IMG/VR virus record: IMGVR_UViG_3300021963_000723
Location: 1-22,173 of that record
From: a virus
Direction: 5' to 3' (one strand)
DNA: 22,173 nt
Shown here piece after piece: positions 3,163-21,327 of this stretch (position 1 is the first letter of the stretch; each line of letters starts with the position of its first letter). The translations under genes were made by a program, and so were the position numbers. A model generated the notes under the pieces. It ran no database searches and was not told the origin of the DNA. It worked only from the letters and a program-made list of their open reading frames with translations.

Positions 3163-4479
3163 TTAGGATACGAGGATGTTGTCCACGCGGAAGATACGGT
3201 AGTACTGGTTGGTACGAGCGGTTGCAAGACCGTTTGCTGGGGTAGCACCAACGAATGGGTTGGTAACCATGCCGTAGCGAGTCTTGAAGCCGATCTTTGG
3301 CTGGAAGTCATCTTCACCAACAGCACGAACCATGGTCAATGGAACGTATGGGCAGTAGAAGAGACCAGCGTCATAGGCGTTTGAACCCTTGTAACCAACA
3401 GTGATGAAGTCAGAGACTGCATATGGGTCGATGTACACGCGGAGCTTGCCGTTAAGCACACCAGCGAAGGTGTTGCCGGTGTCGTCAACGTTTAGGTTGG
3501 TTGAAAGAGCTGGAGCGTAGTCAAGAGCACCAGAAGCTGCAAGAGCAGAAGCAACATCGCTTGAGCAAAGGATGAAGTTACCCTTACCACGACGAGTTTC
3601 TTTTGCAATTACGTTTGCTTCACGGTCAAGCTGGAATAGAAGACCCTTGAACTTTTCAACTGACCAACGGCCGTCAGCATCGACTGAAAGGTTGAAGATA
3701 CCGCGGTTCTGAAGAGCTGATTGCTGAGCACCAGTCTTAGCTTGGCTGTTGATTGTACGAATAACTTCACGGTTGATTTCCGCAAGGATTTCAGTCTGAA
3801 GGATATTCGCAAGTTCGGTTTCAGCGTCAAGACCGTGAATTGCTTTAAGGTCCTGTGCCAATTCCATTGAGTATTCAGCCTTTAGCGCGCGTGAACGTGC
3901 GGTAACGGTTGCTTTTTCAATGGTGAAGCCCATGTTGCGGAATGCACCAGCGTCTTCCGCCTTAGCGGTGTTCATACCTTGTGCGAATGCTGGGTTACCA
4001 GAACGCTCGCCGTTGATGTTGCTGTCTGAACCACCGGTTAGACCGTATAGACCAGCTGGATCTGAGTCTTGTGCGGAGTCAGAGTTACCGGAGAATGCAG
4101 TGTTAGCTTCGTTGAAGAGAGCTTCGGTGTTTGCAGTTGTACCAGCTGTGTAGCGTGACTTCATTGCGAAGATCAAGCCAGTTGGACCAGTCATTGGCTG
4201 AACGCCGCAGAGATCGTATGCAATCATGTTAGGCATTGCACGACGAACTAGGGAGATCAGAACTGGATCCCAGTTAGCTACAGAAGCGTTACCAACAGAT
4301 GTTGCTGGGGATTCTGATAGATAACCCATTTGTGAACGCTCTTCGCGAAGAGCCTTTTCTGTGTTCTCAAGAACAACAGCGGTTACTGAGCGGCGGTGAG
4401 AATCTTTGATTGCGCCAGCAGTTTCTTCATTAAGAACTGGGGCCCACTTCTTCACCAAATTGTCGTAAGATTCCATCAT
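3163..4479 (-). CDS. 23: gp23 major capsid protein
   Basis: 438-residue precursor of the main head shell subunit (T4: 521), forming the hexamers. The conserved T4 block LVRRAMPNMIAYDLCGVQPM followed by T-G-P-T-G-L-I-F-A is present at about residues 74-105. A gp21-protease site of the L-x-E type is visible as LSE|SP after Glu56, so about 56 residues would be removed on maturation (T4 removes 65). ATG at 4479 has GGAG nine bases upstream; the next codon is also ATG but is spaced less well. It is the last gene of the gp68-21-22-23 operon and is followed by a strong terminator. No vertex homologue gp24 follows. Confidence 0.97.
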   Translation of the reverse strand: MMESYDNLVKKWAPVLNEETAGAIKDSHRRSVTAVVLENTEKALREERSQMGYLSESPATSVGNASVANWDPVLISLVRRAMPNMIAYDLCGVQPMTGPTGLIFAMKSRYTAGTTANTEALFNEANTAFSGNSDSAQDSDPAGLYGLTGGSDSNINGERSGNPAFAQGMNTAKAEDAGAFRNMGFTIEKATVTARSRALKAEYSMELAQDLKAIHGLDAETELANILQTEILAEINREVIRTINSQAKTGAQQSALQNRGIFNLSVDADGRWSVEKFKGLLFQLDREANVIAKETRRGKGNFILCSSDVASALAASGALDYAPALSTNLNVDDTGNTFAGVLNGKLRVYIDPYAVSDFITVGYKGSNAYDAGLFYCPYVPLTMVRAVGEDDFQPKIGFKTRYGMVTNPFVGATPANGLATARTNQYYRIFRVDNILVS

Positions 4480-4492
4480 TTGAGAGGACTCC

Positions 4493-5521
4493 TTAGTTAT
4501 TTGATTTACGGATTGCTTTGAGGTACTGAGCCATTGTGCCAGATACTTCTTCTGATAGATCAGTTTCAGTGTCTTCTACAATAGTTGGCGCAGCGGTTTT
4601 CTTAGAGAAGTATGATTCTTTGATGGTCTTTACTTTTGCAGCAAATGATGACTCATCCTCGAATGCAATTCCTTCTGCGAGGGATGCTAACTTAGCAACT
4701 TGAGTTTCTGCTAGGTCACGTGAAGCTTCACGAATCACTGATTCGCGCTTGTATGATTCTAGCTCTTCTGCAAGTTTGATGCTCTTAGCTACAGCGCCAT
4801 TGAGTTGCTCTTCGAGCTCGTCGTTAGCTGCTGAAAGTTCGTCGACTAGGTCAACTTTGGATTCTGGTACATCAACATAAGACTCTACGAATAGATCCTT
4901 TAGTTTTGCCATGAAGGTTTCAGCAATCTCAGTACGAAGACCTGCTTGTACTGCGAGCTTGTTTTCTTCCATCCAAGTTTCTACCACGTAGTTGAGGTAG
5001 CTATCAACCTTCTCTACAAGCTCTGCCTTGTGAGCAGCAACTTCTTCTTGTAGTTCGGTTGCATATGCTTCTTCCAGACGATCAATTTCTTCTGAAAGTT
5101 TGCTCTTGACCGCAGCTTCAAAGATAATAGCTGTTTTGGACTTGAACTCTTCGGAAAGAGTAGCCTCAGATTCGACCAACGCATTAAGGTCAGCAGTAAA
5201 GTCGATGTTAACATCGACGGTACGTGCTTCGGCAATAGCAGCTTCATCAGCTACTTCATCCATAAGACGAGAAAGAGCTACAGCAAGTTCTTCTGTTTTA
5301 AGAGAAGACATATACTCATAGCCTGCGTTAATCATGCCAGCTTTAGACTTTGGCATTGGTTCGCTGTTTGACTTGTCGCCCTTGCGAGATTTAGCAGTTG
5401 GACCTGCCTTCTCTGCAGCTTTGACTGAGTCAACAGATTGCTGTTCAGCATTTTTAGGATCGTGAGCTTCAACTACATCGTTGTCATCGAGCTCAACATC
5501 CTGAACATTTTTATCAGTCAT
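4493..5521 (-). CDS. 22: gp22 prohead core scaffold protein
   Basis: 342 residues (T4: 269). The main internal scaffold around which gp23 assembles, later cut into peptides by gp21. The protein is very acidic with long helical, coiled-coil-like stretches (about residues 110-290) rich in Glu, Lys, Ala and Leu. It has several L-x-E type protease sites such as LAE and LVE. The C-terminus AQYLKAIRKSNN is basic, as expected for the shell-contacting end of a scaffold. It lies one base after the gp21 stop and 13 bases before gp23. Identification rests on position between gp21 and gp23 plus composition. Confidence 0.9.
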   Translation of the reverse strand: MTDKNVQDVELDDNDVVEAHDPKNAEQQSVDSVKAAEKAGPTAKSRKGDKSNSEPMPKSKAGMINAGYEYMSSLKTEELAVALSRLMDEVADEAAIAEARTVDVNIDFTADLNALVESEATLSEEFKSKTAIIFEAAVKSKLSEEIDRLEEAYATELQEEVAAHKAELVEKVDSYLNYVVETWMEENKLAVQAGLRTEIAETFMAKLKDLFVESYVDVPESKVDLVDELSAANDELEEQLNGAVAKSIKLAEELESYKRESVIREASRDLAETQVAKLASLAEGIAFEDESSFAAKVKTIKESYFSKKTAAPTIVEDTETDLSEEVSGTMAQYLKAIRKSNN

Positions 5522-5522
5522 G

Positions 5523-6191
5523 TTAGACTCCTATATTGGATTTTTTCAGCAACGAGAGGAAATTCTTGAACTCACGAGCCTGGGCCTCGTAAAGACCCTT
5601 ACGTGGAGCTTTCTTAATTTCAGTCTCCATTTTTTCAATTACTTGAGGTTGAATAATGCCGTTATTCCAAACCCACTCTACACCTTCCATGATTCCATTT
5701 ACGAAGGCTGTTGGTGCAGATGGATCTTGCACAATATCAACTGTGCTAAGAATAAAGTCGTCTTTAACGTACATCACGCCATTCTTTTCCTCAAGGCTAC
5801 CCATACCACGAGTTGACACGCCTAGACGAACACCCCCATCAAGAAGACCTTTTACAATCATTCCCATTGGAGTCTCTAGAATACGTGCTTTACCCACAAT
5901 ATCGTTACCCTGCCATTGCAAGTTTTCGATAATGTGGGAAACCTTGTCAAGGTTAATCGAAGGGCCTTCTGGGTGATTTAATTCACCAACAGCGCGCTTC
6001 GTGTTAACCATTTCAGTAACATACTTACCTACTGCCTTCTCCATTACTGGCTTAGGATAGATACGTCCGTTACGATTTCTTTGTTCTGATTGCGCAAAGA
6101 TACCTTCGATGAAGTGATTCTTACCACCGCCAGCCTTAGCTTCGGTGATCACTTCGATCTCGTTCTCTACATATTCAGCAATCAGCTTCAT
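5523..6191 (-). CDS. 21: gp21 prohead maturation protease
   Basis: 222 residues (T4: 212). Serine protease of the herpesvirus-assemblin-like fold that digests the scaffold and trims gp23 in the prohead. The family blocks are FIEGIFAQSEQRNRNGRIYP (27-46), GELNHP with catalytic His73, GVSTRGMGS with catalytic Ser126, and VDIVQDPSAP (151-160), probably supplying the third residue. Likely self-cleavage sites are ITE|AK after Glu17 and LYE|AQ after Glu202. The start overlaps the stop of the gp68-like gene by four bases (ATGA), so translation is probably coupled. Confidence 0.96.
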   Translation of the reverse strand: MKLIAEYVENEIEVITEAKAGGGKNHFIEGIFAQSEQRNRNGRIYPKPVMEKAVGKYVTEMVNTKRAVGELNHPEGPSINLDKVSHIIENLQWQGNDIVGKARILETPMGMIVKGLLDGGVRLGVSTRGMGSLEEKNGVMYVKDDFILSTVDIVQDPSAPTAFVNGIMEGVEWVWNNGIIQPQVIEKMETEIKKAPRKGLYEAQAREFKNFLSLLKKSNIGV

Positions 6192-8878: not shown

Positions 8879-9364
8879 TTATCCAAAGAATGATGTTGTT
8901 ACTGTGAGTCCATGCCCAGGCTTCGACGAGCCTGTAGCTGTAACATCGTAGAATAAAGAATCCGTTGATGTTATATTAAAGGAAACCGAAGTCGATGAAG
9001 CTGTAGTGCCCGTACCTAAAGAAAATGTTCCAAGGGTTGACTCTGCTCCTGCGGCTGTTACTTTTCTTAATCTAACAGTTATGCCACTTCCTGTTGGTGC
9101 TGCTGTGACTCCTATACGTCCTGATCTATCAAGCACTGTTAGAGAAACACCATTGATAAGAACGTTTCTGCCAAAATTAATAGGTTTATTTCCATTTACA
9201 ACAACAACGTTTCTTCCTGGGGATGTAATAGTAGTCTTTAATATTTTAGGAGACACACCTGCAGAAATATTAGATGGCGTTGCATTAGCTATGTTATCAA
9301 TGTTTGAATACACTGTGCCTGTTGTGTTATCTATGAGAAATTTTCTTGTTCTTCTAGCCATCAT
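8879..9364 (-). CDS. beta-rich putative virion protein, 161 aa
   Basis: 161 residues, Thr/Ser/Gly-rich, predicted almost wholly beta, with an N-terminal basic tag (MMARRTRKF). The second half (SGITVRLRKVTAAGAE through SLFYDVTATG) looks like an immunoglobulin-like or carbohydrate-binding sandwich. The ATG overlaps the collagen gene stop (TAATG), so it is probably made together with the collagen-like fibre and may cap or attach it. The next codon is also ATG. No family can be named. Confidence 0.65.
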   Translation of the reverse strand: MMARRTRKFLIDNTTGTVYSNIDNIANATPSNISAGVSPKILKTTITSPGRNVVVVNGNKPINFGRNVLINGVSLTVLDRSGRIGVTAAPTGSGITVRLRKVTAAGAESTLGTFSLGTGTTASSTSVSFNITSTDSLFYDVTATGSSKPGHGLTVTTSFFG

Positions 9365-10977
9365 TAAACCTCTATAGTCTGTACAACAGCTTTCCAGTCA
9401 ATTGTATGACCAGATACACCTGTTACATAAACGTTTACTGAATTGTTTGTATCGTCGGCTCTAACGTCAACTAGATAACCAGCATTTGTTCTTGCAACAA
9501 CAACTTCATATACTGAGCCAATGTCGGTAACAACTCCTGCACTATTTGCAGCTACGCCTCTTACTTCAAACATAGCATAGTCGCCCTGTGTGTCAGTTCG
9601 TCTTGCAGCAATTTGTACAATGTAATTAACTGATGTGTTTGTCGCCACTGCAATTCTAGTAGTACCACCAACTAGCAATTCGGTTTCAGTGTTATTATTA
9701 GTAGTGGTAGTCAACAGATACTGGTTTGAGAATACATTAGATCCGCTAGATCCCGTATAACCAATAGACCCTTGCGAACCTGTATAACCTATTACGGTTG
9801 ATGCAGAACCTGTGAAGCCTATATTACCTTGCGAGCCTGTATAACCTATTACGGTTGATGCAGACCCTGTAAAGCCTATATTACCTTGCGAGCCTTGAGA
9901 ACCTGTGAAGCCAACATCACCTTGAGACCCTTGCGAGCCTGTAAAGCCTATATTACCTTGCGAGCCTGTATAACCTATAACGGTTGATGCAGAACCTGTA
10001 AAGCCTATACTGCCTTGTGATCCCGTATATCCTATATTACCTTGCGAGCCTTGTGATCCAGTGTAGCCGACCACAGTTGATGCAGACCCTGTAAATCCAA
10101 TAACACCCTGAGAGCCCGTATAACCAATAACTGTTGACGCAGATCCAGTGAAACCGGTTGCACCTCGTGAACCTGTATAGCCTTCACCTGTAGATCCATT
10201 ACTAGAGGAACCGCCCAGTTCATTTATTAGCTTAACAACATCATTTTTACCAAGACCGCCGCCTCCTATAGATGCTAACGATTTATTAACATTGGATCGC
10301 CATCTGTTAAAATCATCTTGGGCTTTGGCAACACCCTTTTCAACGATAGGTATAATGTCTGGTATTACAGCATCTTTACCAGGTGGCCCTTGGTCGCCTT
10401 TATCGCCTTTATCACCCTTTGGTCCTTGCAGACCATCTTTTCCATCACGCCCGTCTTTACCATCAGTGCCATCTCGGCCGTCATTGCCCTGATCACCTTT
10501 GTCACCTTTTGGACCTTGGGCGCCATCAATTCCATTTAAACCGTTGGATCCATCTCGACCGTTTTTACCATCATCGCCTTTTGGACCTCGATCACCTTTG
10601 TCACCCTTAGCACCATTATATCCATTGATGCCGTCCTTGCCAGGATCGCCCTTATCGCCCTTTAGACCATCCTTACCATCAACGCCGTCCCGGCCGTCTT
10701 TACCATCAACACCATTACGTCCATTCTCACCAGGATCGCCCTTATCACCCTGACGTCCTGGAGCTCCAGGATCACCCTTATCTCCTTTATCGCCCTTGAT
10801 GCCACGGGGGCCATCTTTACCATCACGACCATTGGAGCCATCGCGGCCAGATGCACCGCGATCGCCCTTAGGACCAGGAATAGATTCAATTAAGGGAGTT
10901 TCTTTAAGCTGATCAATCTCTTCGAAGACCTTCTTAAAGTTAAGGGCTACGAGAGCATCGCTGATGGATTTATCCAT
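9364..10977 (-). CDS. collagen-like fibre protein
   Basis: 537 residues in five parts. Residues 1-34 are helical (FKKVFEEIDQL), possibly an anchor or trimer starter. Residues 35-202 are about 56 unbroken Gly-X-Y triplets rich in Lys, Asp and Arg (GPKGDRG, GKDGRDG). Residues 203-264 are a helical then Gly/Ser linker. Residues 265-413 are a second, uncharged Gly-X-Y stretch (GYTGSQG, GFTGSAS) broken several times by the insert SASTVI or SASTVV. Residues 417-537 are a beta-rich C-terminal head. The protein should trimerise into a long thin fibre ending in a globular domain. Collagen-like repeats are common in phage virion fibres; location on head or neck is inference from its place after portal gp20. 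Confidence 0.85.
   Translation of the reverse strand: MDKSISDALVALNFKKVFEEIDQLKETPLIESIPGPKGDRGASGRDGSNGRDGKDGPRGIKGDKGDKGDPGAPGRQGDKGDPGENGRNGVDGKDGRDGVDGKDGLKGDKGDPGKDGINGYNGAKGDKGDRGPKGDDGKNGRDGSNGLNGIDGAQGPKGDKGDQGNDGRDGTDGKDGRDGKDGLQGPKGDKGDKGDQGPPGKDAVIPDIIPIVEKGVAKAQDDFNRWRSNVNKSLASIGGGGLGKNDVVKLINELGGSSSNGSTGEGYTGSRGATGFTGSASTVIGYTGSQGVIGFTGSASTVVGYTGSQGSQGNIGYTGSQGSIGFTGSASTVIGYTGSQGNIGFTGSQGSQGDVGFTGSQGSQGNIGFTGSASTVIGYTGSQGNIGFTGSASTVIGYTGSQGSIGYTGSSGSNVFSNQYLLTTTTNNNTETELLVGGTTRIAVATNTSVNYIVQIAARRTDTQGDYAMFEVRGVAANSAGVVTDIGSVYEVVVARTNAGYLVDVRADDTNNSVNVYVTGVSGHTIDWKAVVQTIEV
9739..10185 (-). repeat. second collagen-like domain, GYTGSQG/GFTGSASTVI repeats
   Basis: Codes residues 265-413 of the collagen-like protein. 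Uncharged Gly-X-Y triplets with Tyr/Phe-Thr and Ser-Gln in the X-Y sites, interrupted at intervals by SASTVI, which shifts the triplet register by one residue. Confidence 0.85.
9779..9892 (-). repeat. 57-base tandem direct repeat, two near-identical copies
   Basis: Copies at 9779-9835 and 9836-9892 differ at two bases. A third related copy starts near 9965. Each unit codes 19 residues of the GYTGSQG/GFTGSASTVI domain. The near identity at DNA level suggests recent duplication and possible copy-number change by recombination. Confidence 0.8.
10372..10875 (-). repeat. first collagen-like domain, charged Gly-X-Y triplets
   Basis: Codes residues 35-202 with Gly at every third position and no break. 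Triplets are dominated by GDK, GKD, GRD, GPK and GDP. The DNA is repetitive but more diverged than the second domain. Confidence 0.85.
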
Positions 10978-10985
10978 AACAAACC

Positions 10986-12611
10986 TTATCTGTTAAGATT
11001 TTCAGTCAACGACTTTAACACTTGAAGCTCTGCATCATCTTTTGCAAATGACATTTCTTCTGTTTGTACTGGAGCTTGTCTTTGTGGAAGCTGAGGTGCA
11101 TTCTGTTCACCAGGCTGAATAATGCTATCATATTCACCTTGGCGACCTTCAACATCCATTTGTTTCTTCATTTGTTTAATGTTGTCGTCATCCATATGTA
11201 GCACGTTCTTCATTACCCATTCTCTGGAGAAGTATGTGCCAACATACTGTTGGATCTCATCCATAAGCTGCAGGCGGCCCATTAGAAGTTCGTTATTCTT
11301 TAGCTCTGTGAAATGGTTGTCGCGAGCATAGTCAACAACAATATCATTTTTCCATTCATCCCAATCCTCTTGAGTGATAATCTGCTTGAGGATTAATTGC
11401 TTCTTGAGAATGTTGTAGAATAGGTGGTTAAACTTTGAACGAAGTCTGTCAATAAACTTTTGGAATGACAATTCATCTCTGGAGATTTCTGTAGAACGGC
11501 CAAGAGAGAATTGCGCTTCCTGTTCCAATCTATTGATAGGAACGTTAAGAGATCTGTAGAGTCTCTTCTGGAAGTAAATGATGTCTTCAATCTGGCCGAG
11601 GTTTTCACCACCAGCTAGAGTTGTAATCTCTGTTCCTCTGCCACCCTCACGACGTGGGAGCCAGAAGTCTTCAAGCATTGACATATGCTTACGGTCGTCT
11701 CTGATAGCACCAGTCTCAGCATCATAAACCAACTTGTTACGATACTTGGCCATAATGCCTTTCATATATTCTTCCGCTTTACCCTTTGGAAGGTTGCCAA
11801 CATCGATATAGAAGATGCGGCGTTCAGGAGCACGAGCAAGACGATAGATGACCAGTGAGTCTTCCATCATACGAAGCTGGTTGATAGGCTTTAGAGCCTT
11901 TTGTAGGTGTGATACAACCTTTTGACGATTCTCATCGAGTAGGCCAGATGTAACATAACTAACAGAGTCAGCGCTGAGCTTAACGCCAGTGTTTGTTTGA
12001 CCAGGCTTATCTTGATAGATGTAGAACTCATCCACTTTCTCGATAATGGATGCGCCAGTCTGCTGATCTTTTTTCTTTTGGATCTGCTTTACTTTGCGAA
12101 CCTTGGCAGCATCGATAGGACGGATCTCTTGGATACCAGCTTTGAGGTTCTTCTCGTCAACCACAAGATGATGATACATTCTTCCGTCGATATACCAACG
12201 CTTGAACATATCGTGGCCCATTTCTTGGAATGCCATCATTGAAACAATGTTGTCAAATTCCTCAGTCATAGCCTTTTTAATATTGTCAGGAGCTTTTACC
12301 TTATCAAGAACAAGAGTCACAGACTGTTCGTTCTCATTAGATACAATTGCTTCATTGACAATATTTTCAATCGCGCCATCAACTTCTGGATGGGTTGATA
12401 CTGCTCTGTATTGTTTAATTAACTGATGATCATCTTTAACGTTAGTATCACCATTAATATCAACATATGTTCCGTAGTGAGCAGCAGAAGCTGTCACATA
12501 GCCCGCACCATCTTCATCGACGGGTGGAACAATTGATGGTAGTAATGGTTTCTCAGTACGTGTAGCACGCTTAATCTGAAAACCAAAAATATTTAAACCT
12601 TCATCAGCCAT
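10986..12611 (-). CDS. 20: gp20 portal protein
   Basis: 541 residues (T4: 524). Twelve copies form the head-tail connector, the site where the head starts and through which DNA passes. Family blocks are visible: Y-R-x-x-S-T-H-P-E-V-D-G-A-I-E-N-I-V-N-E near residue 70, R-W-Y-I-D-G-R-M-Y-H-H near 142, F-Y-I-D-V-G-N-L-P-K-G-K-A near 268, the M-L-E-D-F-W-L-P-R-R-E-G-G-R-G-T-E-I block near 313 and L-G-R-S-T-E-I-S-R-D near 368. AGGAA precedes the ATG. It follows gp19 after a strong hairpin, which may lower its output relative to the abundant sheath and tube proteins. Confidence 0.97.
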   Translation of the reverse strand: MADEGLNIFGFQIKRATRTEKPLLPSIVPPVDEDGAGYVTASAAHYGTYVDINGDTNVKDDHQLIKQYRAVSTHPEVDGAIENIVNEAIVSNENEQSVTLVLDKVKAPDNIKKAMTEEFDNIVSMMAFQEMGHDMFKRWYIDGRMYHHLVVDEKNLKAGIQEIRPIDAAKVRKVKQIQKKKDQQTGASIIEKVDEFYIYQDKPGQTNTGVKLSADSVSYVTSGLLDENRQKVVSHLQKALKPINQLRMMEDSLVIYRLARAPERRIFYIDVGNLPKGKAEEYMKGIMAKYRNKLVYDAETGAIRDDRKHMSMLEDFWLPRREGGRGTEITTLAGGENLGQIEDIIYFQKRLYRSLNVPINRLEQEAQFSLGRSTEISRDELSFQKFIDRLRSKFNHLFYNILKKQLILKQIITQEDWDEWKNDIVVDYARDNHFTELKNNELLMGRLQLMDEIQQYVGTYFSREWVMKNVLHMDDDNIKQMKKQMDVEGRQGEYDSIIQPGEQNAPQLPQRQAPVQTEEMSFAKDDAELQVLKSLTENLNR

Positions 12612-16994: not shown

Positions 16995-17774
16995 TTATGC
17001 ACTATCTATCAAGGTTGTAATTGTTGTTGTGAACCCAAAGTCGCTGTCTGGGCTTGCACCGAAAGGATCCGGAACGACTCTAATGCGTTCTGCAATAACG
17101 TCAGAATCGTTCAAACCAATTCCTATAAACCCAACGTTAGCATCAACTTGACGAATAATTTCACCAGTATTGGTTGGTCCATAGAAGTTAATCTTCATTT
17201 CAAATTCAAGACTGTAGATGATCGTGCGGCGCTGTTCCATTGCGCCTTCGTAATCATCACTAAATGACACGCTCGAAATTGTAATAGGAACGTCTTCTGT
17301 TATAGAAGGATAATCGTCCACTGGTCTAATTGTTATAGTATATTGTGGGCTAAAATATGGTAAAATTTGCTCCACAACTTGTAATGCATCGTCCTGCGAC
17401 TTAGCATATATGTTAAGCTGGAATGATATAATGTATGGGGTTGGCGCAAAGAATTTTGTCTTCAACGTGTTAGTGCTAGGCAAAATCTTTTGGTTAACTT
17501 TAGCCAACTGTCTTGTTGGATCATAGTTAATAGATGTAACTTCAAAAGACATTCTAGGTAGCTTAACAGCAACCTTAGCATCAGTATCCAAATCAGGATT
17601 CTCTAACAAACGTTCCATATACTTGCGCTTTGGAGCATATGACAATGGAACCTTAATAGTGCTGTTGCCATCGCCGTTAGCCAATGTTCTCATAATGTAT
17701 ATGTTATTGAATAGGCGGCCAAATAAGGCAACGCTTTTTCTAATTCTCTGATGATAAAAATACGTTCCTAACAT
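16995..17774 (-). CDS. 15: gp15 tail completion/sheath terminator protein
   Basis: 259 residues (T4: 272). A hexamer that caps the finished tail and joins it to the neck. The N-terminus L-G-T-Y-F-Y-H-Q-R-I-R-K-S-V-A-L-F-G-R-L-F-N-N-I and the following I-K-V-P-L-S-Y-A-P-K-R-K-Y-M-E-R-L block align well with T4 gp15. Its ATG overlaps the gp14 stop (TAATG). Confidence 0.95.
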   Translation of the reverse strand: MLGTYFYHQRIRKSVALFGRLFNNIYIMRTLANGDGNSTIKVPLSYAPKRKYMERLLENPDLDTDAKVAVKLPRMSFEVTSINYDPTRQLAKVNQKILPSTNTLKTKFFAPTPYIISFQLNIYAKSQDDALQVVEQILPYFSPQYTITIRPVDDYPSITEDVPITISSVSFSDDYEGAMEQRRTIIYSLEFEMKINFYGPTNTGEIIRQVDANVGFIGIGLNDSDVIAERIRVVPDPFGASPDSDFGFTTTITTLIDSA

Positions 17775-18661
17775 TAGTTGCCCTCCACAGTGCCAAACGG
17801 ATTGCTTTCTGAGAAGTCAATAAAGTCTGTATTGTCACTAAACTCTTCATTCTGAGCACCAGGGGCATTCAGCTGTTCATCAATTACAGTAACCATGCGA
17901 CGAATGATATTGTCGCTGCTATCTGCTGAAGTAATAACACGAGAAGTGACAAACTCATGGAAATCGCTGTCATTTGAACCCATATGAGAAATTGATATAA
18001 CGTTATCAGAATCGTTATAATCAACAATGTCGCCGGATACAATAACACCAGAGGCCAACGTTTGAGAAGCAGTGTTGCCAATTATAAATCCTGTCGCTGA
18101 TGAATCTTGTAGGGTTAGTTTTACAACATACCCAGTCTTTTCAATTGAATCGATAACCTCAATACCAGTGTCGAGATCTTCGTCGTTGTATTCAAACTTC
18201 TCACAACGTAGCTTGTAGGTTGGGAGATTGCTTAGTTGATAGAATGGTTGTTCATGCTCAACATGCATAATCTCAAACATTGTGTTGCTAAGTGTGAGGT
18301 ATATTAAGTCACCTTCTCTAGGTCTGACGCTGGTGATCTCGTTGTCATATCTTTTAATAGTTTGCTGCCAACGGCGTCTAGCTACAACAAATGTAGCCTG
18401 ATCTCTTAGCTCAACACCAAACTTAGTAAAGATATCCCCTTCTCCGTCAAAGCCTTCTGGATTGTCGATATACATTTCAACAATATAAGCAGAGTTAAAT
18501 CTGGATGGAATATCGTCACCAAAGATCGGATCCTTGTTGACGATATCGCGAGGAATGTAGTATACATCCTGACCATACATCTTTAATGATTCTATAACGA
18601 TATCCTCGTATAGACTCTGCTCAGATTTAACTTTTTGTGAGAAATATAGATTAGTGGCCAT
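17774..18661 (-). CDS. 14: gp14 neck protein
   Basis: 295 residues (T4: 256). Neck component that links head and tail with gp13. The blocks E-S-L-K-M-Y-G-Q-D-V-Y-Y-I-P-R-D and D-P-I-F-G-D-D correspond to the T4 blocks E-S-I-Q-M-R-G-V-E-C-Y-Y-V-P-R-E and D-L-I-F-G-E-D. The C-terminal third is acidic and strand-rich and longer than in T4, ending with SNPFGTVEGN. The start overlaps the HAD gene stop (TAATG). Confidence 0.94.
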   Translation of the reverse strand: MATNLYFSQKVKSEQSLYEDIVIESLKMYGQDVYYIPRDIVNKDPIFGDDIPSRFNSAYIVEMYIDNPEGFDGEGDIFTKFGVELRDQATFVVARRRWQQTIKRYDNEITSVRPREGDLIYLTLSNTMFEIMHVEHEQPFYQLSNLPTYKLRCEKFEYNDEDLDTGIEVIDSIEKTGYVVKLTLQDSSATGFIIGNTASQTLASGVIVSGDIVDYNDSDNVISISHMGSNDSDFHEFVTSRVITSADSSDNIIRRMVTVIDEQLNAPGAQNEEFSDNTDFIDFSESNPFGTVEGN

Positions 18662-19269
18662 TAAACTTTCCTTATTGACCCATCAGGTTGAACATGATAA
18701 GCCTCAAAGCTAATGTCCGGGTAACGTTTTTGCAAAGACTTAAACATTGTAACGTTTGATAATGCATCATCAAAAAACCTTACACGTGCATAATTACCAC
18801 TTCGAAGATATTTGTGGAATAGGAATCTTTTGTTTTTTGCGCTGGAATTACCAGATCCAAAATTGCCTGCACGTTCAACATAGACCTTATCAATGTCAAT
18901 TCCGTGATCTTTAAACGTTTGTAAGAATTCTTTTTTGTTATCAAAATCAGCGCGGGCGGTCATAATAATAACCTTAGATCCTGCTCTATTAGCGTTTGAT
19001 ATAATTGCTCTAGCTTTACTAATCATGCTAGTAATTGGTTTAGAAGTTTTTCTAAAGTTAGCAGCATCTTTAAACTGACCAAAATCAAAGGATTCGCCAG
19101 GCTTTAATTTGTATGTGTTAAACTCTTGATTAGTAAGTTGTTTAACCTCCTTTCCATCTTTCATCACTTTTATCTTGGCAAATGTGTGGAATAGGGTGTC
19201 ATCAATGTCAAACACTGTTAACCCTCGTCCTTCCTTTGCTTCTGTGATAAACGAATAAAAAGATTTCAT
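18661..19269 (-). CDS. HAD-family phosphatase with capsid-targeting N-terminus
   Basis: 202 residues. HAD-type Asp-dependent phosphohydrolase with intact motifs: nucleophile motif FDIDDT (Asp21, Asp23), motif II MTAR (Thr104), a likely motif III Lys near 147, and motif IV FFDDA (Asp167, Asp168). The first residues, MKSFYSFITE followed by AK, match the T4 capsid-targeting peptide MKTYQEFIAE|A found on internal head proteins and cut by gp21. The enzyme may therefore be packed inside the head and injected with the DNA. The open frame begins at a TTG (19275), but ATG 19269 restores the targeting peptide exactly. T4 has no gene here between 13 and 14. Substrate unknown; nucleotide, sugar phosphate or nucleic acid ends are possible. 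Confidence 0.88.
   Translation of the reverse strand: MKSFYSFITEAKEGRGLTVFDIDDTLFHTFAKIKVMKDGKEVKQLTNQEFNTYKLKPGESFDFGQFKDAANFRKTSKPITSMISKARAIISNANRAGSKVIIMTARADFDNKKEFLQTFKDHGIDIDKVYVERAGNFGSGNSSAKNKRFLFHKYLRSGNYARVRFFDDALSNVTMFKSLQKRYPDISFEAYHVQPDGSIRKV
19240..19269 (-). other. predicted capsid-targeting peptide with gp21 cleavage site
   Basis: Codes residues 1-10 of the HAD protein, MKSFYSFITE, with cleavage expected after Glu10 before Ala-Lys. The gp21 encoded in this window carries the same ITE|AK junction at its own residues 15-19. Confidence 0.65.
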
Positions 19270-19275
19270 TGCCAA

Positions 19276-20031
19276 TTACCCTACAAAGAAATCAATTGGC
19301 ATTTCGTGAGTCAGTCTCATGCTATCCATGATCTGTTCTAACTCAGCAGTTGCATCTTCATAAAACTGACGACCGTTAAGAGTGACTCCACCAGGAAGCT
19401 GCATCCCTTCAAACTTCATAAGGTTCATGCCCCACTGCTGCTTAATTAGAGCAGTGGTGTAATCTTTCATGAACGTATCGCTCCACACAGCAGTGTATGT
19501 GGTTGGATTAATCTTCATTAGAACTTCTGCTACAATGAAGTCATTTACCTTTACATCACCATCGACGAAATCGCCATGAACATACAATCTGTTCTGGCGT
19601 CTTGAGAATGTTGTTTGGGGAGTGCCATTGAGCTGCATATCAAGCAGAGAGATATACTGATTGATCTGGTCATAGTATGCAAGATCGCCAATGTAGCTAT
19701 GCATATCTGTGATGTCGTTTAGCGCAAGCTGGTATTTGATATCAAAGAAGTTGCGTGATGCACCTACACCAGTCGAAATTGGAAACAGCTTAGTGACATA
19801 GATAATGTCCGTACTTAGAGTAATATAACCATTGGTCAAGTCTTGTGATGTCACTTGATGCTTTAAGTAGGTGCGAAGAGTGCCCTCTGAATGATAGTCG
19901 TGGTACTTTGACAAAGCATCATCAACTTTATCCTCAATCTGATCTGGATCAACGTTGACCTCAATCACAGGAGAGCCTAGACGGCGTAAGCAATAGTCAA
20001 TGAGAGATTGTCTAGATGTTGGTATTGCCAT
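19276..20031 (-). CDS. 13: gp13 neck protein
   Basis: 251 residues (T4: 309). Binds the portal after packaging and, with gp14, forms the collar to which the tail attaches. The N-terminal block L-I-D-Y-C-L-R-R-L-G-S-P-V-I-E-V-N-V-D-P-D-Q-I matches the T4 gp13 block L-R-R-L-G-A-P-I-I-N-V-E-L-T-P-D-Q-I. It lies behind a late promoter and heads the gp13 to gp17 operon. Confidence 0.95.
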   Translation of the reverse strand: MAIPTSRQSLIDYCLRRLGSPVIEVNVDPDQIEDKVDDALSKYHDYHSEGTLRTYLKHQVTSQDLTNGYITLSTDIIYVTKLFPISTGVGASRNFFDIKYQLALNDITDMHSYIGDLAYYDQINQYISLLDMQLNGTPQTTFSRRQNRLYVHGDFVDGDVKVNDFIVAEVLMKINPTTYTAVWSDTFMKDYTTALIKQQWGMNLMKFEGMQLPGGVTLNGRQFYEDATAELEQIMDSMRLTHEMPIDFFVG

Positions 20032-20058: not shown

Positions 20059-20066
20059 TATTTATA
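20059..20066 (-). promoter_or_regulatory. T4-type late promoter for gp13 to gp17
   Basis: Perfect TATAAATA on the minus strand, five bases past the stop of the GT-FkbM gene and 28 bases before the gp13 ATG. Confidence 0.85.
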
Positions 20067-20070
20067 AGGT

Positions 20071-21327
20071 TCACACTTTGGTAAAATGATAATCCCCATC
20101 TACTTCATTTTTGCAGAAGTTGACAACTAACTTAAAGCCTTTTGTGCTTAAATAGTCTACAATTTCCTGGATTTGTGGCGCACCTTTGTTATATTCTACA
20201 TGTTGTGCTTCTAGAATAATATCTGAGGCGTGCTCAATACATGTATTGGCACCTCTTAAAACATCTAGCTCTGCGCCCTGGATATCCATTTTGATTAGAT
20301 CTGGAAGCTGCCATTTGTTATAAGAAACAACAGTATCAAGTGTCCATGCAACCTTCTTTACAGCATGTTGTTCCGTAAAGTGACCTGTTGTTTCAATGTA
20401 GTAAGAATTACCACCAGGATTTTCTTTGTCTTCATAGAAAGTCAGCTCGTGATTGTCTTTGTCGCTAAGCACTCCAATGTACCAGCTATCACCACTACGC
20501 TCAAAGAATTGTTTTGAAGAATCCGCTGCGTCAAACAGATAATACTGAGCTGATGGCCACACTTCTTTAGCCTTGCGAGTCCAATGAAGAACACATGCAC
20601 CAATATCATAAACAACTTTAGGTTTTATGTTCATCGACTTTAAATAATTAGCATGGGTCGTTGGTAATAGATCCTGCTCAGCTATTCTTTCAATGTGGCT
20701 TTTTTGGCTTGCAACAACAAACTTAGTTTGACCAATATGCTCACAAATGATGCTGGTATCAGCCCACACAGTAAACCCAGCATTGACAGCTTGATCGCAG
20801 AAGTAAACGTCTTCCGATACTGTATCGCTGTGAGATAACGCCGACTTATAAACAAAATGTGGATATTCAAGTGTGTTGAAGACTTGAGATTTAATTAAAC
20901 AGCAACCCATTCCACAAGCAGATATTTGAACAATACCTTTGCCTTCGATTTTACTATAGTCGATATTCTTATGACCAATATTAATAGTGTCAAGACCTCT
21001 TTTAACGGTGGTTACTGGTTCATAAACCTCAAGAGTGTGTTGACCAGGCTTGCGTTGAATATACAAGCCAGATATAATATCTTTGTCGGCTTGAATCATT
21101 TTAGCTAACGCATCATTTGGTAAAACAATATCACTGTCTACTGAAAACAAATAATCATAATGTCTTGCCCAATCCGCAATTAGATTGCGGATCTGGTCAA
21201 TCTGATAGCCGTAAAAGAACTGGAAGTGAGTTTTATAGCCTACAGGAACATGTAAATCATATATCGACTTGAATGTTTCTGGTTCAATATATTTGTTGGT
21301 TGGAATAGCAATTAGAATGGTTTTCAT
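20071..21327 (-). CDS. glycosyltransferase/FkbM-type methyltransferase fusion
   Basis: 418 residues in two catalytic parts. Residues 1 to about 220 form a GT-A-fold glycosyltransferase: strand ILIAIPT, the metal-binding DSD at 64-66 (FSVDSDIVLP), a glycine/cysteine-rich acceptor region GMGCCLI, SEDVYF (171-176) with the likely base, and CEHIG with the late His at 197. Residues about 235-405 form an FkbM-type SAM methyltransferase: SAM loop VVYDIGACVLHWT, FDAADSS (265-271) and the family signature DLIKMDIQGAELDVLRG (343-359). It would add a sugar and methylate a sugar hydroxyl, on a virion protein or host surface glycan; the acceptor is not visible. The start overlaps the upstream glycosyltransferase by four bases (ATGA). 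Confidence 0.88.
   Translation of the reverse strand: MKTILIAIPTNKYIEPETFKSIYDLHVPVGYKTHFQFFYGYQIDQIRNLIADWARHYDYLFSVDSDIVLPNDALAKMIQADKDIISGLYIQRKPGQHTLEVYEPVTTVKRGLDTINIGHKNIDYSKIEGKGIVQISACGMGCCLIKSQVFNTLEYPHFVYKSALSHSDTVSEDVYFCDQAVNAGFTVWADTSIICEHIGQTKFVVASQKSHIERIAEQDLLPTTHANYLKSMNIKPKVVYDIGACVLHWTRKAKEVWPSAQYYLFDAADSSKQFFERSGDSWYIGVLSDKDNHELTFYEDKENPGGNSYYIETTGHFTEQHAVKKVAWTLDTVVSYNKWQLPDLIKMDIQGAELDVLRGANTCIEHASDIILEAQHVEYNKGAPQIQEIVDYLSTKGFKLVVNFCKNEVDGDYHFTKV

Follow-up and report, generated by a model that had tools for sequence, protein, structure and literature searches.

Between the neck genes gp13 and gp14 of an uncultivated T4-like phage lies a gene for a phosphatase-like protein, whose first ten residues resemble the peptide that targets internal head proteins of phage T4 to the capsid, which raises the question of whether this enzyme is packed into the phage head and delivered to the host. 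The window, i.e., the whole 22,173-nucleotide stretch that we analyzed, is an IMG/VR virus fragment (∼22 kb) in which the T4-type head genes gp21, gp22, and gp23 are all present, and the closest annotated relative of the phage is C48C1 (Kyanoviridae). We consider it likely that the gene encodes a T4-type internal head protein with a HAD phosphatase as its cargo, probably cut by gp21 and injected.

A HAD gene between gp13 and gp14

The translation of the minus-strand open reading frame starts MKSFYSFITEAKEGRGLTVFDIDDTLF. Translation and the alignment of relatives confirm the first-pass annotation in that the protein begins with MKSFYSFITE/AK and carries the full set of HAD residues, and the PHROG 211 and T4_neck-protein matches of the two neighbors do the same for its placement (Table 1). 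The HAD stop codon overlaps the gp14 start codon (TAATG). In C48C1, Melnitz, HTVC008M, and S-SZBM1, gp13 directly adjoins gp14. Possible signs of late expression are the coupling to gp14 and the T4-type late element TATAAATA upstream of gp13, which occurs five times in the window, compared with 1.15 copies expected; in other clades, the HAD gene is found in replication clusters. Two further genes of the window were recorded in passing: a collagen-like protein with Gly-X-Y repeats (positions 9364 to 10977, minus strand), directly downstream of the portal gene (10986 to 12611), and, upstream of gp13, a protein that combines a glycosyltransferase-like part at its N terminus with an FkbM methyltransferase at its C terminus (20071 to 21327, minus strand).

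Table 1. Positions of the HAD gene, its motifs, and the neck and head genes in the window
Feature	Position	Strand	Remarks
gp23 major capsid protein	3163..4479	-	Candidate gp21 cut at YLSE/S
gp22 scaffold (T4_CASP)	4493..5521	-	PF25623; presumed docking partner of the leader
gp21 prohead protease (Peptidase_S77)	5523..6191	-	PF03420, 2.7e-41
ITE/AK junction near gp21 N terminus	6135..6149	-	Residues 15-19; identical to the HAD junction
gp14-like neck protein (T4_neck-protein)	17774..18661	-	PF11649
HAD-family phosphatase gene	18661..19269	-	202 aa; N-terminal capsid-targeting-type leader
HAD motif IV, Asp167-Asp168	18766..18771	-	Invariant, 37 relatives
HAD motif III, Lys147	18829..18831	-	Invariant, 37 relatives
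HAD motif II, TAR (T104-R106)	18952..18960	-	Invariant, 37 relatives
HAD motif I, DIDDT (D21, D23, T25)	19195..19209	-	Invariant, 37 relatives
Leader peptide MKSFYSFITE	19240..19269	-	Codons 1-10; gp21 cut predicted after Glu10
gp13-like head-tail adaptor	19276..20031	-	PHROG 211; upstream neighbor of the HAD gene
T4-type late promoter element	20059..20066	-	Upstream of gp13

Residues D21, D23, T25, T104, R106, K147, D167, and D168 are identical in all 37 relatives. The protein scores 20.9 bits with PF03767, under the gathering score of 27, related HAD models also stay below their cutoffs, and PHROG 415 ("polynucleotide kinase") matches it at 1.6e-9. An AlphaFold2 model built from 37 sequences (pLDDT of 86), which replaced a weaker one from 9 sequences (pLDDT of 78), adopts a Rossmann-like HAD fold, and residues 1 to 10 form a short predicted helix apart from the core (pLDDT of 55, compared with ∼80 to 94 in the core). 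When this model was searched against the PDB by fold, all 13 matches at E ≤ 0.001 were chains of the HAD phosphatase AphA (best E, ∼5e-5), with a modest TM score of ∼0.45; at the sequence level, the HAD profile found no real relative in the PDB. Judged by sequence and model, the protein is an intact HAD-fold candidate phosphatase. It shares the HAD motif I FDIDDT with the class B acid phosphatase AphA (PF03767), its best PDB fold match, but differs in its low TM score, its score below the Pfam cutoff, the lack of an export signal, and its cap region. It resembles the phosphatase domain of T4 Pnkp (PHROG 415) as a predicted HAD phosphatase of a phage, and some of its relatives are paired with ligase-like genes; however, it has no kinase domain, and its motif I is DIDDT as in AphA.

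Conservation of the leader among HAD relatives

The leader shares with T4 IPI, IPII, and IPIII a length of about 10 residues, an aromatic residue at position 4, F7, I8, and E10, followed by Ala. The sequence MKTYQEFIAEA, which had been ascribed to all three T4 proteins at first, is common to IPII and IPIII, while that of IPI is only similar (PMC9026906). In T4 IPIII, residues 4 and 7 govern targeting, and residues 8 and 10 govern processing (PMC9026906). In contrast to the T4 proteins, which are small restriction inhibitors, the cargo here is an intact HAD enzyme, position 4 is F instead of Y, and the gene is found in the gp13-gp14 gap. The phage also resembles T4 in its gp21, gp22, and gp23, and its gp21 does carry the junction ITE/AK near its own N terminus, as had been noted earlier.

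To assess the conservation of the first 11 residues, as the first-pass annotation had proposed, we scanned viral contigs and obtained 109 HAD relatives, of which 80 were kept; 37 nonredundant ones, from uncultivated phages, were used for the leader statistics. Most of them start with M-x-x-F-x-x-[FY/I/L]-[IL]-x-E, and the strict leader pattern [FL]xx[FYIL][ILM]xE was found in 32 of the 37, compared with a mean of 0.49 and a maximum of 4 in 2,000 rounds of residue shuffling, showing that the leader peptide is more than chance. E10 is conserved in at least 90% of the relatives. Among eight close sequences of the window clade, codons 4, 7, 8, and 10 show zero amino acid changes, although two of them vary synonymously; amino acid changes do occur at four of the remaining five leader codons. 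The targeting residues F4 and F7 are fixed in the window clade, and they are kept in most relatives; the leader ends in the gp21 consensus [LI]xE at positions 8 and 10 (FITE/A). Its spacing is constant, while the linker to the HAD core differs in length between relatives.

The HAD gene itself moves. It occupies the gp13-gp14 gap in the window clade, follows gp3 in L042, lies directly after gp23 in L043 to L057, and elsewhere adjoins baseplate genes or replication genes of the uvsX/gp41 type (some gene identities were assigned by eye). Given that most relatives are located elsewhere, we rejected the notion that the HAD gene is specific to the gp13-gp14 gap. The leader persists across these locations, and a T4-type gp21 (S77) is present in every HAD-bearing contig larger than 60 kb. 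Directly behind the HAD gene, two loci (L085:6618-7926 and L090:4009-5317) carry a cargo cassette of four small leader-tagged genes in a row.

Intact HAD domains with a Glu-less N terminus had been named as evidence that would speak against targeting. In phages, these are rare exceptions: the leader is missing from the HAD of L086, and I8 and E10 are lost in L103/L104, which retain F4 and F7. Leaderless forms also occur in bacteria, where the homologs (41 to 48% identity) are C-terminal domains of other proteins. These are no counterexample to targeting, since bacteria have no head to pack, and they indicate that the leader was added in phages and is dispensable for the HAD fold. Among annotated phages, a sequence search with the HAD protein returned only LR756500, which is 30% identical and has no leader in the reading that matched. 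The HAD-bearing proteins of three bacterial metagenome-assembled genomes (L351 to L353) look phospholipase D-like by eye, a hint at phosphodiester end processing. One 3.3-kb contig titled as a Thermoplasmata genome (L350, JAHWGK010000096.1) has the leader and resembles phage locus L105; its presence in an archaeal assembly is probably binning contamination.

In some large phages, the HAD domain is fused to a GH19 lysozyme/chitinase domain behind a leader-like N terminus, MKILDIITER (L073:5968-8130 and L087:5986-7806, the latter on a contig of 365 kb). These fusions, the HAD genes beside baseplate genes, and a leader-tagged glucosaminidase would fit a leader that directs proteins to another virion site, such as the tail tube, baseplate, or portal, or that is incorporated uncleaved, with the enzyme working during DNA ejection or envelope crossing. 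We find this highly improbable, since the leader agrees with the T4 head core peptide at all four of the mapped positions, the gp21 consensus stands at its end, and nearly all remaining cargo has no link to the tail.

The leader on unrelated proteins and in virion proteomes

At least 120 stretches in viral contigs matched a DNA pattern encoding MK[x]FxxFIxEA, and their open reading frames fall into at least 44 clusters starting at the pattern, with more than 40 clusters of unrelated proteins. The cargo includes CTP_transf_like, SAM lyase, adenylate kinase, AAA_33, GNAT, glucosaminidase, DUF5661, and DUF6267 proteins, as well as another HAD-like protein recognized by eye (L125). As a spacing control, we shifted the first Phe by one place and searched the whole collection: this gave 90 stretches, and among the 82 new ones retrieved, all matches also had an aromatic residue at position 4 except for a single family (MKSGFEFIDEA) and one stray peptide. 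A variant with Tyr at position 4 matched the start of the C48C1 helicase, likely by chance, and F4 was therefore required in later scans. S77 was found in 12 of the 30 long contigs of the leader set; its lack in the others is uninformative, because most of these fragments are smaller than T4-like genomes. Two single cases were also recorded: a SAM lyase (PF23780) with the leader MKTFSQFISEA, which is a candidate injected antirestriction enzyme (L221:7160-7690, plus strand), and T4 gp61.1, an uncharacterized 54-residue protein that starts with the targeting-type leader MKTFKEFIKE (gene 61.1; L026:1467-1631, minus strand).

As an independent test, we looked for the leader in cyanophages whose virion proteins have been identified by mass spectrometry in published work. 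The genome of S-CREM2 (OR473000) encodes exactly four proteins with a strict leader, open reading frames 6 (SAM hydrolase), 14 (APH-like kinase), 136 (unknown), and 154 (cytidylyltransferase). In its virions, 52 of 221 proteins were detected, and all four leader proteins are among them (P = 0.0028) (PMC10665884). The single leader protein of S-SM1, SSM1_190 (cluster T4-GC190), was likewise detected (Sullivan et al. 2010, PMC3037559), as was one of the two in S-SCSM1, an NMNAT, the other being a 106-residue protein without a virion annotation in that source (PMC9602691). A kinase of S-CRM01 that starts with MISFDQFLSE is also reported in virions. These virion enzymes share the N-terminal leader (MKDFDSFLEE, MKRFDAFLTE, MKNFSSFLTE, MKKFSAFLNE, MKSFLQFLKE, and MISFDQFLSE) with the HAD protein, whereas their folds are different (SAM hydrolase, APH-like kinase, and cytidylyltransferase/NMNAT). 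The proteome authors caution that enzymes associated with virions may be contaminants, and the accessible text of the S-CREM2, S-SM1, S-SCSM1, and S-CRM01 papers mentions no targeting peptide; a literature search for "capsid targeting sequence" and "cyanophage" returned only a T4 review. The leader would account for most of the puzzling enzymes of S-CREM2 virions.

Two other S-CREM2 proteins reported in virions deserve mention, the Cas9-like ORF12, with a displaced leader (RFASFMAE/A, residues 18 to 25), and ORF13, a near match. Behind the leader, some proteins that otherwise differ share a second module (approximately xxRLGLxxDGHGGWYDxxGxFVAKTxxGxLKFY), namely those of cluster 0 of the leader pattern (e.g., L216), S-CREM2 ORF12 and ORF14, and PSSM2_194 of P-SSM2. 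It is seen on a cytidylyltransferase and the Cas9-like protein, more weakly on the kinase, and is possibly a second packaging domain.

The PHROG 415 similarity to polynucleotide kinase-phosphatases (1.6e-9), the replication clusters around the HAD gene in some clades, and the short predicted N-terminal helix could all be expected of an ordinary cytoplasmic phage phosphatase, a nucleotidase or polynucleotide 3′-phosphatase, whose helix is structural or regulatory and resembles T4 by coincidence. Such an enzyme is very unlikely, given that dozens of unrelated proteins have the same leader, that its spacing is fixed while linker length varies, that leaderless homologs show the HAD fold to be independent of it, and that leader proteins appear in the virion lists cited above. 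Capsid targeting of the HAD protein, as first suggested for this gene, is well supported at the sequence level, by position-specific conservation, varied loci, and co-occurrence with gp21, together with the leader's presence on unrelated proteins and in virion proteomes. The exceptions L086 and L103/L104, the replication gene settings in several clades, the S-SCSM1 leader protein that lacks a virion annotation, the contamination caveat of the proteome authors, the weak AphA fold matches, and the Pfam scores under the cutoff count against the reading as a whole.

Predicted packaging and a possible role in end healing

The HAD protein joins a known kind, the T4 internal head proteins, with an enzyme as cargo. 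For this phage, we predict that the protein is packaged, cleaved after Glu10, and injected, and that it acts as a phosphatase. Late in infection, F4 and F7 of the leader would dock the HAD protein on the gp22 core, and gp21 would cut after E10, releasing residues 11 to 202 within the head, although the leader may also target without being cleaved. The enzyme would then be ejected with the DNA and act at once in the host. Injection is proposed by analogy with T4 (PMC9026906, PMC12373910). A T4 enzyme that is loaded into the head, processed by gp21, and injected is the ADP-ribosyltransferase Alt; it differs from the HAD protein in being another enzyme, cut at ITE-6 and at its C terminus, with a leader that is not of the MKxF..FIxE type.

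Docking on the prohead core could also serve the producing cell or head assembly, e.g., by action on core proteins, rather than a host-directed injected effector. T4 IPIII influences head assembly (PMC9026906), and the HAD gene lies among head-neck genes in the window clade and directly after gp23 in another. We regard this as unlikely, since the same leader is found on HADs beside baseplate or replication genes in other clades, SAM lyase, GNAT, and adenylate kinase as cargo fit the host cell and not assembly, and T4 Ip1-3 block host GmrSD restriction enzymes, showing that cargo of the leader type can be antirestriction (PMC12373910).

If the HAD protein is injected, it might take phosphate off nucleic acid ends or nucleotides, a weaker guess than its delivery, and in many relatives, it might act together with a neighboring leader-tagged RNA ligase or ligase-like protein. 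The HAD gene lies directly beside a leader-tagged RNA_ligase in L037 and L040, a leader-tagged DUF6267 protein with KWDG in L041, L060, and L066, and a leader-tagged KYDG protein in L069; C48C1 and Melnitz have leader-tagged DUF6267-type proteins with no HAD at gp13-gp14. Joint packing of a phosphatase with a ligase-like protein would suggest the healing and sealing of nucleic acid ends, and end healing is our leading guess for the role of the HAD protein, judging from these sequences. DUF6267 is listed as unknown in Pfam, and its members (L041:6612-7838; C48C1, L345:1325-2548; Melnitz, L346:1773-2501) combine the leader with KWDG, EGFV, and KLV motifs resembling nucleotidyltransferase ligases. 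When aligned with RNA_ligase by hhalign, the KxDG region matched with a negligible probability of 1.4%, and we do not claim common descent.

The broader pattern of leader-tagged enzymes outweighs the single HAD gene, for which the prediction is that heads contain a mature phosphatase with Ala11 as its first residue. The leader offers an explanation for the SAM hydrolase, kinases, and cytidylyltransferases of cyanophage particles, which the original authors could not separate from contaminants. Tentatively, and with some doubt, we propose that the T4-type leader could be a general delivery tag for dozens of enzyme families across the wider T4 superfamily, with the HAD protein and its leader-tagged ligase neighbor as a packaged end-healing and sealing kit that would repair nucleic acid, such as damaged tRNA or nicked DNA, at infection, before phage gene expression. 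Injected phage proteins are mostly unknown outside T4, and a tag of ten residues that is recognizable in the sequence and consistent with published virion proteomes opens a direct search for them.
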